Source of the DNA: an uncultured bacterium | GTDB taxonomy: Bacteria > Patescibacteriota > Minisyncoccia > Phycocordibacterales > UBA5272 | NCBI GenBank assembly: GCA_903875555.1 | Contig: CAIQWN010000031.1 | Coordinates: 1-35,028 of the forward strand | Length of the DNA: 35,028 nucleotides | Direction: 5' to 3' | Shown: positions 11,793 through 15,713 of the stretch, in pieces | Position numbering within the stretch: position 1 is the first letter of the stretch | How the letters are laid out: each line of letters starts with the position of its first letter | Position numbers and translations under genes: made by a program | The notes under the pieces: model-generated | Database searches by the model: none | What the model saw: only the letters and a program-made list of their open reading frames with translations | Told to the model about the DNA's origin: nothing

Positions 11793-11827
11793 TGGCTAGT
11801 GTCTAGTTTTTTTGTTAAAATGATGTG

Positions 11828-12694
11828 ATGCAAGGTCACTCTCATCCTATTACAATCTTAACTGACGAAATCACTCGTATTTTTACTGAGATTGGTTTTG
11901 ATGTGGCAGATGGTCCAGAACTTGAAAATGAATGGAATAATTTTGATGCGTTAAATGTTCCGCGTGATCATCCTTCACGCGATATGCAGGACACTTTCTT
12001 TATTCGTGATTACACGAATAAAGCGCAGACAAACGCAGAACAAACGCAGATCAACGCGGAAGGAATACAAAGAAATGCTATTGATAAATTAGGCAGACCG
12101 ATGAGTTTTGTTTTGCGAACACACACTTCATCTGTGCAAATTCGCGAAATGGAAAAGTGGGCGAAACTTTCTGATAAGGAAAAGAAAAAAAATCCTCTCG
12201 CCATAGTTGTCCCAGGAAAAGTTTTTCGTAATGAGGCAACCGACGCCACTCACGAAGCGCAATTTCATCAAGTAGAAGGATTGCTTGTCGGAGAAAATGT
12301 AACACTTGCACAAATGAAAGGAACACTACAACACTTCTTTACAAAATTTTTTGGTAAAGAAATAAATGTTCGTCTTCGCTCCTCTTTTTTTCCGTTCGTA
12401 GAACCAGGATGTGAGTTTGATGTCGAGTGTTTTAAATGTGAAGGAAAAGGTATACATGAAGTATCTTCTGAAAGATTTATTGCTTGTTCATTGTGTAAGG
12501 GGACTGGCTGGATAGAAATCGGTGGAGCAGGAATGGTTCATCCTCGTGTGCTAGAAAATTGTGGAATTGATAATCGCAAGTATCAAGGCTTTGCTTTTGG
12601 TTGCGGTATGGATAGAATCGCAATGTTGAAATGGGGAATGGATGATGTGCGTTTGTTATACAATGGTGATCTAAGAGTGGTTAATCAATTTTAA
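11828..12694 (+). CDS. pheS: Phenylalanine--tRNA ligase alpha subunit
   Basis: GHSHPITILTDEITRIFTEIGF, DALNVPRDHPSRDMQDTFFI, RTHTSSVQIR, EPGCEFDV, GTGWIEIGGAGMVHP, FAFGCGMDRIAML. Confidence 0.96.
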   Translation: MQGHSHPITILTDEITRIFTEIGFDVADGPELENEWNNFDALNVPRDHPSRDMQDTFFIRDYTNKAQTNAEQTQINAEGIQRNAIDKLGRPMSFVLRTHTSSVQIREMEKWAKLSDKEKKKNPLAIVVPGKVFRNEATDATHEAQFHQVEGLLVGENVTLAQMKGTLQHFFTKFFGKEINVRLRSSFFPFVEPGCEFDVECFKCEGKGIHEVSSERFIACSLCKGTGWIEIGGAGMVHPRVLENCGIDNRKYQGFAFGCGMDRIAMLKWGMDDVRLLYNGDLRVVNQF

Positions 12695-12696
12695 TT

Positions 12697-15162
12697 ATGA
12701 AATTCTCACTTAAATGGTTACAAGAACATATAAAGGAAACTATTCATAAAAATGAATATGTTGTTGGAGAAACATCTTGGACGGATATCCCTGAAATGTT
12801 ATCAAAAAAATTCTTAGAGGTTGAAGGGTTTGAGGAGGTAAATGGAGATGTTATATATGATATAAAAGTTTTGCCACATAGACAGCATGATTGTTTTTCT
12901 CATCGAGGTATAGCCCGCGAAATTGCCACTCTATTTTCACTTAAAAGAGAAGAAAGAAAAATTATTCGTCCTTCAATTGATCAAAACATAAAAATAAAAG
13001 TTGTTGTAGAAGACAGTAAACTTTGTTCTCGCTACATCGGTGTTCGTGTTGATAATATAAAAGTTGAAAGCTCTGTTGTGTGGAAAGAAAAATTAGAAAG
13101 TATTGGTCAACGCTCAATTTCCGCGATTGTTGATATTACAAATTTTGTGATGAACGATATCGGTCAGCCTATGCATGCTTTTGATGCGGATAAAGTTATT
13201 GGTGGAATAACTGTGCGTCTCGCAAAAGAAGGTGAGACAATGACAACTCTTGATGGTAAGGAATTAACCATGAAAGGCACAGAAACTGTTATTGCAGATG
13301 ATGAAGGTGTGCTTGCTCTCGCAGGTGTGAAAGGTGGCACAAAAGCTATTGTTGATGAAAATACAAAGTCTATTATTTTTGAATCAGCAAATTTTAATGC
13401 AACCGCAACACGCAAGTCATCTGATTTACATAATATTCGTACCGATGCTTCTAAAAGATATGAAGCACAAATGACGAGTGAATTTGCAGGTGAGGCAATG
13501 GATTATGCATTACAACTCATTAAAGAAATTTATCCAGAATGTATTATCGGAGAAGTTGTTGATGTGTATCCTCGCACAGATAAAATATTTAAAATCGGAA
13601 TCGGTACTCACGAAGTAAATAAATTACTTGGCACAAATTATTCTGATGAAATAATTGAAAAAACTTTAAAGCAATTAAATTTTTCATTTGAAAAAATAAT
13701 TCCAGAGCAAAAGTTAAAAGAAATTATTCCTCAAACACTTGATAAACCATACGACCGTTTAGCAAGCACGCTTCACGATGCTCCAAATAAATTTTCTTGC
13801 GGCTCGCTCGTGAATTGGTTTTATAAAGAATGTGGTTATCCAAGTCCTCGTGTGGCGCTTGATATGTATATCTATTGCAAAAATGTTGATCACGAAGATC
13901 TCCGTTTTGGTGATTTCGTTTTTACAAATACAAAAATAGAAAAACCAAAAGATGTGATGATATATTCACAAGTTTTAGGTAAAGAAATTCCAGATGCTCC
14001 AAAATATACACAGACAGTTGAGTATATGCCAGGAATAGAATTTGCTCCAGGGATTGATCATGTTGGAATGTATATTGGTGATGGAAAAGTTTTACACACA
14101 GGAAGTGGTATAGGAAAAACTGTGATTGAAGAATTAAAGACTAGCGAATATTTTAAAAATGAATGTTGGTATGGAAGAATGGTTGAAGATTTATCGGTGG
14201 AACAATTTGTTATCTCTGTTCCATTTGAAAGATTAGATGTTCGTATCAAAGCCGATGTGATTGAAGAAATTGCTCGTGTTATTGGTTATGATTCTATTGC
14301 AAGTGAACTTCCAAAATTAAACCGCACAGGTTTACCACATAAGCGTCTATATTACGAAACAAAAATAAAAAATATTTTAATCAAGAATGGGTTTTCTGAA
14401 ATTTATACTTATACTTTTGGTGATAAAGGTGAGGTGGAGATTGTGAAAGGATTGGCGCATGACAAAGAAAAACTTCGAACGAATTTGGGTGATGGAGTTT
14501 TGGGTGCGGTCAAAATGAATTTACACAACGCGCCACTTCTTGGAGAAAAAGTAATTAAAGTTTTTGAATTTGGAAATGTTTTTAGTAAAGAAGTAGAAGA
14601 GAGACATTTATCATATGGTTTTGCATGTTCTACAAAAAAAGATAGAGAAGAACTTGTTATTTTATTAGACGCTGTATACAAACTTATATTTAAGAGTTTA
14701 AAATTAAACGAATCTGATTATCAAGAACCAAATATGTATATTAGTAGTGATTTACATCATAAAGAAACAATGATGACTGCTGAGATTAATTTTGATAAAC
14801 TAATAGAAAGTTTACCTGAACCAAAAGATTATGAACCTCTACTACAAAATAAAATTGATGTTTCTTACAAATCCGTCTCTGCTTACCCGTTTATCGTTCG
14901 TGATATTGCTTGTTTTACTCCTGCTGACACAACATGGGAGGATGTCCTTGCTATCATTAACAAAAACGATAATCCTCTCATCGTTCGTCGTTCTTTATTT
15001 GATACATTTAAGAAAACATTCGAAGACAGCACAATAAAAATGTCTTATGCTTTTCGTTTAGTAATTCAATCATTCGAAAAAACTTTAACAGATGATGAGG
15101 CGAATGAAATTGCTAACAAGACCTACAATGATCTTAAAGAGAAAGGTTGGGAGATAAGATAA
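12697..15162 (+). CDS. pheT: Phenylalanine--tRNA ligase beta subunit with an in-frame inserted NlpC/P60-like domain
   Basis: MKFSLKWLQEHI start, B3/B4 (SISAIVDITNFVMNDIGQPMHAFDADK), split B5 (HEVNKLLGTNYSDEIIEKTLKQLNFSFE ... VISVPFERLDVRIKADVIEEIARVIGYD), FDX-ACB C-terminus. Insert contains FSCGSLVNWFYKECG and DHVGMYIGDGKVLHTGS. Confidence 0.95.
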   Translation: MKFSLKWLQEHIKETIHKNEYVVGETSWTDIPEMLSKKFLEVEGFEEVNGDVIYDIKVLPHRQHDCFSHRGIAREIATLFSLKREERKIIRPSIDQNIKIKVVVEDSKLCSRYIGVRVDNIKVESSVVWKEKLESIGQRSISAIVDITNFVMNDIGQPMHAFDADKVIGGITVRLAKEGETMTTLDGKELTMKGTETVIADDEGVLALAGVKGGTKAIVDENTKSIIFESANFNATATRKSSDLHNIRTDASKRYEAQMTSEFAGEAMDYALQLIKEIYPECIIGEVVDVYPRTDKIFKIGIGTHEVNKLLGTNYSDEIIEKTLKQLNFSFEKIIPEQKLKEIIPQTLDKPYDRLASTLHDAPNKFSCGSLVNWFYKECGYPSPRVALDMYIYCKNVDHEDLRFGDFVFTNTKIEKPKDVMIYSQVLGKEIPDAPKYTQTVEYMPGIEFAPGIDHVGMYIGDGKVLHTGSGIGKTVIEELKTSEYFKNECWYGRMVEDLSVEQFVISVPFERLDVRIKADVIEEIARVIGYDSIASELPKLNRTGLPHKRLYYETKIKNILIKNGFSEIYTYTFGDKGEVEIVKGLAHDKEKLRTNLGDGVLGAVKMNLHNAPLLGEKVIKVFEFGNVFSKEVEERHLSYGFACSTKKDREELVILLDAVYKLIFKSLKLNESDYQEPNMYISSDLHHKETMMTAEINFDKLIESLPEPKDYEPLLQNKIDVSYKSVSAYPFIVRDIACFTPADTTWEDVLAIINKNDNPLIVRRSLFDTFKKTFEDSTIKMSYAFRLVIQSFEKTLTDDEANEIANKTYNDLKEKGWEIR

Positions 15163-15164
15163 TT

Positions 15165-15713
15165 ATGAAACTAGAAGTACCATACTACTCACAATATTTA
15201 GAAGTAAAAGATTCGGAGTGGAATATTCGTTCTTGTTCTGGTTCGTGTGTGGCGATGGCGATGGAATTTTTAACTGGGAAGAAAATTGATATTTTGGAAT
15301 ATATGAAAGAGGCGGAGAGAGATGGTGGTTATGATAAATTAAACGGTGCCAGTCACGATTATATTATTTCTTGTTTTGAGAAAGTCGGACTGAAATCTTG
15401 GCGATATAAAAACACGGAAACTAAAGACGTGAACAATGACATCGCTCCACTGATTGAAAGTTTAGAAAATGGTTTTCCTGTTATTGTTTCCATAAATAAA
15501 ATTATTTTAGAACAAAAAAAGTTTCATTTAGTTTTACTTGTCGGTTTAGAGAAAAATGAAAAAGGAGAAGTAACACATTTTTATTATCACGAACCAGAAG
15601 CAACAGTCACAAGCGTAGAAAACAACCCTGCTGTCGGTGGCGCATTTAGAAAGTGTGAAGTAGAAATTTTTAAGAATTTTTACCGCGGTCGTGCTATATT
15701 TGTAAGTAAATAA
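15165..15713 (+). CDS. Peptidase C39-like (papain-fold) protein
   Basis: VPYYSQ...SCSGSCVAMAMEF (Cys region), KFHLVLLVGLE (His region), FYYHEPE. Confidence 0.7.
   Translation: MKLEVPYYSQYLEVKDSEWNIRSCSGSCVAMAMEFLTGKKIDILEYMKEAERDGGYDKLNGASHDYIISCFEKVGLKSWRYKNTETKDVNNDIAPLIESLENGFPVIVSINKIILEQKKFHLVLLVGLEKNEKGEVTHFYYHEPEATVTSVENNPAVGGAFRKCEVEIFKNFYRGRAIFVSK

Follow-up and report, generated by a model that had tools for sequence, protein, structure and literature searches.

The window, a stretch of 35,028 nucleotides within a 714-kb CPR (Patescibacteria) genome that is 96% complete, carries a pheT gene in which the B5 hairpin of the encoded beta subunit of the aminoacyl-tRNA synthetase PheRS is interrupted by a canonical NlpC/P60 cysteine-hydrolase domain. 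Comparison across genomes demonstrated that this B5-NlpC piece is a portable module, which mostly lies inside PheT, stands elsewhere as a gene of its own beside a single-chain PheRS and has been swapped between PheTs. An essential, universally conserved synthetase here bears a second enzyme, itself intact, whose class is familiar from the degradation of cell walls. Searches of the open-access literature, with subscription papers and preprints outside their scope, turned up no account of PheRS carrying an NlpC/P60 domain. The features of the locus are given below, with residue numbers referring to PheT.

11825 to 12694, + strand: pheS, alpha subunit of PheRS, ending 2 nt before pheT (ORF, its own sequence and its place beside pheT)
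12697 to 15162, + strand: pheT with the NlpC/P60 insert, 821 aa, without a B2/EMAP domain (ORF, Pfam, TIGR00472)
13024 to 13530, + strand: B3/B4 editing domain, residues 110-278 (Pfam B3_4, alignment)
13585 to 13695, + strand: N-terminal half of B5, residues 297-333 (alignment with empty sites)
13696 to 14199, + strand: NlpC/P60 (C40) domain, residues 334-501, inserted at the B5 hairpin tip (Pfam, conservation, alignments)
13798 to 13800, + strand: codon of Cys368, the predicted nucleophile
14059 to 14061, + strand: codon of His455, the predicted catalytic base
14095 to 14097, + strand: codon of His467, the third polar residue
14200 to 14292, + strand: C-terminal half of B5, residues 502-532 (Pfam, alignment)
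14878 to 15159, + strand: FDX-ACB anticodon-binding domain, residues 728-821 (Pfam)
15147 to 15713, + strand: papain-like gene of the C39_2 family, its ORF running over the 3' end of pheT, with ATG 15165 as the probable start (PF13529, 48.3 bits)

Inspection of pheT reveals a single open frame from 12697 to 15162, as had been claimed in a sequence-only reading of this DNA. The window shares with bacterial PheT (TIGR00472) the B3/B4, B5, core and FDX-ACB domains and the pheS-pheT gene order, but its B5 is broken by an enzyme domain and B2/EMAP is absent. Pfam accordingly reports B5 in two pieces, the second at residues 500-531, and the TIGR00472 score of 392.8 bits falls slightly below the cut-off of 402.65, a shortfall probably due to the missing B2 and the split B5. 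Before the B1/B3 region there are 42 residues, versus 155 in the PheTs of other classes; loss of B2 in many CPR PheTs is already known (PMC5370408). Alignment indicates that the editing residues of B3/B4 are kept in the window (H160, G213, E229, T249 and A251; H265, G318, E334, T354 and A356 in E. coli numbering).

The domain inside B5 was recognized by NLPC_P60 both in the whole protein (43.3 bits, E 3.8e-11) and in the insert alone (PF00877, 49.3 bits, E 5.4e-13), each against a cut-off of 23, and PF00877 matched 60 of 60 aligned members of the insert family. Its borders were set by comparison with empty B5 sites in genomes of the same genus (G003, G004 and G016). In the window, NFSFE precedes the first border, K opens the NlpC stretch and EQFVISVPFERLD follows the second border, versus LLFPFSESENIYTVEVPSERLD at the empty site of the insert-less PheTs. 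The domain identity and the position within B5 given by the sequence-only reading were thereby borne out, at about residues 334-501. The three proposed catalytic residues are likewise in place: across the 76 insert-bearing PheTs of the order, Cys368 and His455 are found in 76/76 and His467 in 73/76, the remainder having Glu or Asp, and Gly380, Pro384, Gly405 and Asp406 are also invariant. In alignments to solved NlpC/P60 structures Cys368 falls on the region of their catalytic Cys, and the sequence profile of the insert family aligns with solved C40 hydrolases over the whole domain, including that of 7cfl (E 1e-27). Profile comparison places peptide-cleaving wall hydrolases and dipeptidyl-peptidase VI as the closest structural relatives, with weak matches to LRAT acyl-transferases from 5 of 60 members. 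AlphaFold prediction of B5-NlpC from two sequences only (the window and L004) gave a pLDDT of 34, too low for a useful model. The GC and GC3 of the insert are the same as those of the rest of pheT.

With the NlpC/P60 peptidoglycan endopeptidases (C40, PF00877; 7cfl, MepS/Spr, RipA/RipB) the insert shares the fold family as inferred from sequence profiles, the Cys-His-His/polar triad and the motifs G-D-L-V-F and H-V-G-x-Y-x-G. In contrast to these enzymes, the window-type domain lies within a cytosolic synthetase or is fused to B5 halves, is genetically linked to PheRS, and lacks a signal peptide, an SH3b domain and any wall-binding domain. The PheT insert is the sole NlpC/P60 match in eight of the nine insert-bearing genomes of the same genus. 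The window's own genome has one more, a weak NlpC/LRAT-like ORF of 214 aa (L002:1147-1791, G000:C2).

A survey of lineages was then used to describe where the insert occurs. Within the family it is present in 15 of 21 genomes, always in PheT-sized frames of 781-832 aa. A profile built from 60 members detected the domain in 95 of 398 sampled genomes of the order, about 72 of them within PheT, at an identical site; the others are free-standing genes of 146-257 aa, a count that hangs on this single profile, and neither these counts nor the others given here are phylogenetically independent. Insert-less PheTs of the order are mostly about 600-690 aa long. In 384 sampled genomes of the phylum, eight full-length PheTs from other classes (929-970 aa, with B2) also have NlpC inside B5, and their inserts form a separate, well-supported clade in the NlpC tree. 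Recurrence of the same architecture in many other assemblies excludes the misassembly that had been named as a possible refutation. Among close relatives, the low Nei-Gojobori dN/dS of the PheT core is matched by that of the insert, with one example pair having dN 0.086 at dS 0.56 in the insert and dN 0.062 at dS 0.55 in the core. Judged by these alignments and rates, strong purifying selection maintains the putative catalytic residues, which supports the earlier inference that activity is selected.

The insert has a history of its own, and phylogenetic evidence indicates that it moved between PheT genes. On the tree of PheT cores, presence and absence can be explained with 18 changes, of which at least 13 are forced by well-supported branches. 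The core of the window PheT is sister to that of G008 (64% identity, with 45% for the insert), whereas its insert is sister to that of a distant PheT, G013, whose locus is L004 (72% for the insert, 47% for the core). AU tests rejected the pairing of the window with G013 on core data (p 6e-7) and with G008 on insert data (p 2e-5), and the surplus identity between the window and G013 begins and ends at about the insert borders. G007 and G009 form another discordant pair, with core identity of 72% and insert identity of 35%. The C39_2 gene of the window tracks the history of the core, at 70% identity to G008 and 36% to G013.

Some genomes of the order lack PheT and encode a single-chain PheRS of about 380 aa, composed of a PF01409 core and FDX-ACB. 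This mitochondrial-type enzyme replaces PheS/PheT in about 66 order genomes (for example L061:6804-7958, L063:7238-8386 and L066:4549-5697). The bacterial single-chain form may itself be little known, given that a 2010 review (PMC3275996) lists monomeric PheRS solely from mitochondria. The single-chain synthetase found beside the free-standing module shares the layout of the monomeric mitochondrial enzyme, a PheS core with FDX-ACB, but is bacterial and is co-encoded with B5-NlpC and often with C39_2. An NlpC gene directly adjoins the single-chain PheRS in 10 PheT-less genomes; seven of these pairs lie on the same strand with a 1-4 nt overlap or a 3-nt gap (stop-start coupled), and three are divergent with short spacing.

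Most of these free-standing NlpC proteins have B5 halves at both ends. When the two flanks were joined and scored with a B5 profile made solely from insert-less PheTs, 10 free-standing proteins (eight single-chain-linked, together with G156 and G197) reached 15-27 bits (E 2e-5 to 6e-9); none of 1050 shuffles exceeded 8.3 bits. In the NlpC tree, the free-standing proteins with B5 halves are scattered at several points among the PheT inserts. The simplest reading of this pattern is that the B5-NlpC piece would have been retained while the remainder of PheT was lost. Family f50 contains PheT with the insert (G139, G251), single-chain PheRS with the free-standing gene (G069, G184, G274, G385) and single-chain PheRS without the module. 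An adjoining module is absent in about 56 of the roughly 66 single-chain PheRS genomes, which indicates that it is non-essential even where B3/B4 is lacking. In G156 and G197 the free-standing B5-NlpC gene (L067:5963-6622, L069:5910-6674) has a mraY-like gene a few genes away, and both genomes retain an insert-less PheT elsewhere. A second clade of free-standing NlpC proteins, termed type B, occurs across CPR classes; its members (L073-L076, L227-L228, L237-L243) are about 200-235 aa long, have N-termini such as YRAVGNRCAVDF, and none lies beside PheRS. Among those that could be scored, B5 scores were 5 bits or less and did not exceed shuffles, and the group is kept merely as relatives, not as B5 carriers.

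The gene that overlaps the end of pheT in the window is a recurrent partner of the insert. Of 70 insert-bearing PheTs with sufficient flanking sequence, 45 have a C39_2 gene immediately or shortly downstream, versus 1 of 42 insert-less PheTs (Fisher p 5e-12, with shared ancestry ignored and with just 350-600 nt of downstream sequence at some insert-less loci), and the gene takes the same place after 6 of the 10 single-chain-linked NlpC genes. Residues Q16, C30 and H127 are invariant in 55/55 C39_2 proteins, and almost all insert-less genomes tested lack C39_2 genome-wide. The partner is not obligatory, as about one third of insert carriers have no adjoining copy. No C39_2 neighbour was found at the inserts of other classes or at type B proteins, so the partner belongs to the clade of the order.

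That lineages losing PheT kept precisely B5-NlpC beside the single-chain PheRS makes a specific, testable function in aminoacylation likely. Most likely the insert is an active cytosolic acyl-hydrolase or transferase that works on something handled by PheRS; our leading guess, held with somewhat less than even confidence, is that it serves in proofreading or salvage deacylation of aminoacyl-tRNA. Substrate and catalysis are inferred, with no evidence on the substrate, and the cytosolic location is inferred from residence within PheT and from free-standing forms in which no signal-peptide-like start was found. The module would act on an ester- or amide-linked acyl group made or bound by PheRS, to which its attachment to the synthetase would deliver it. 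The target may be tRNA-Phe with a wrong or blocked acyl group left uncleared by B3/B4; Cys368 would attack the carbonyl with His455 as base, the B5 half-domain would keep the module on or near PheRS or the tRNA, and the same pathway would include the C39_2 protein as an optional further enzyme. This proofreading reading is favoured by conservation across the 76 PheTs, by dN/dS, by the PheRS-adjacent module and its kept B5 halves, by the link to C39_2, by the lack of a signal peptide and by the insert being the sole NlpC/P60 protein in most carriers of the genus. It is weakened by the lack of substrate evidence, by the intact B3/B4 residues, which give no hint of editing having been handed over, by the many single-chain PheRS genes without an adjoining module, and by the swift swapping, which is unusual for a housekeeping fidelity domain.

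Replacement of B3/B4 editing by the insert was ruled out, since PheTs that carry it and PheTs that lack it retain the editing residues alike; the insert would add to editing. The D-aminoacyl-tRNA deacylase DTD (PF02580) was found in 0 of 80 order genomes, carriers and non-carriers alike, with 8 of 14 controls positive, so no trade-off with the insert is visible. Of the three roles first offered from the sequence, a tRNA- or aminoacyl-directed hydrolase remains the best, its activity being untested. A moonlighting wall enzyme is disfavoured by the cytosolic host protein and the free forms without a signal-like start, and a tolerated graft by dN/dS and by the module kept beside single-chain PheRS. 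The free-standing forms, the C39_2 partner and the horizontal exchange had no place in that first reading. Known appended or trans editing domains (ProXp-ala, AlaX, B3/B4) are likewise accessory hydrolase domains in cis or as separate proteins, but the PheRS-linked domain is of the papain-like cysteine type, and we know of no papain-like cysteine enzyme among them. If the domain does act on aminoacyl-tRNA, it would be, to our knowledge, the first papain-like editing or transfer domain of a synthetase, and would show minimal parasitic bacteria adding translational quality control or resistance. More speculatively, B5-NlpC and C39_2 could form a two-enzyme module that is attached to PheRS in cis or in trans, performs new cysteine-based chemistry on Phe-tRNA, and is exchanged among CPR like a resistance or quality-control cassette.

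Several carriers and element types were considered and set aside. Phage or plasmid matches were just 26-33% identical, the annotated ones being ordinary NlpC or cell-wall hydrolases, and viral contigs gave none. No PADLOC profile match marked it as a defence system, and a Pfam scan found no Hint, endonuclease or intein domain as expected of an intein or homing element.

Neither a resistance function nor a Phe-tRNA-dependent transferase can be excluded. The former, which we consider unlikely, has the domain hydrolysing PheRS inhibitors of the Trojan-horse type, whether Phe-containing amides or adenylate mimics, and so shielding the target in place. The patchy distribution, with its many gains and losses and exchange between PheT genes, is the kind of turnover typical of resistance genes, and the partner is a second papain-like hydrolase; against this, no inhibitor or producer link is known, PADLOC gave no match, and the low dN/dS leaves no adaptive substitution visible between close relatives. 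Less probable again is an acyl-transferase whose papain-like Cys moves Phe from Phe-tRNA to a protein, lipid or wall precursor. Synthetase-transferase fusions are known (LysX, built on LysRS, and the AspRS-based ergosteryl-aspartate synthase), and the weak LRAT matches, the C39_2 partner and the murC gene that follows in the window would suit such an enzyme, but the insert sequence is that of a canonical hydrolytic C40 domain, and murC is no general neighbour at other loci. We regard as doubtful a cytosolic peptidase that, in an auxotroph, supplies PheRS on the spot by freeing Phe or recycling murein peptides: the top structural relatives cleave peptides, but exclusive attachment to PheRS and the kept B5 halves of the free-standing gene would be left unexplained. 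Least credible is a selfish or neutral insertion, spread by recombination in a tolerant hairpin without host function, which would account for a patchy, exchanged insert at one site but not for the conserved catalytic residues, the low dN/dS, the excised module retained in the PheRS operon or the C39_2 partner, and which is not helped by the lack of an endonuclease or intein domain.

Apart from the insert, pheT and the neighbouring ATP synthase a-subunit gene of L209 (G237), and also of G264 and G364, contain in-frame TGA codons. At least one of these stands at an expected Trp, which suggests recoding of UGA to Trp in part of family f86.
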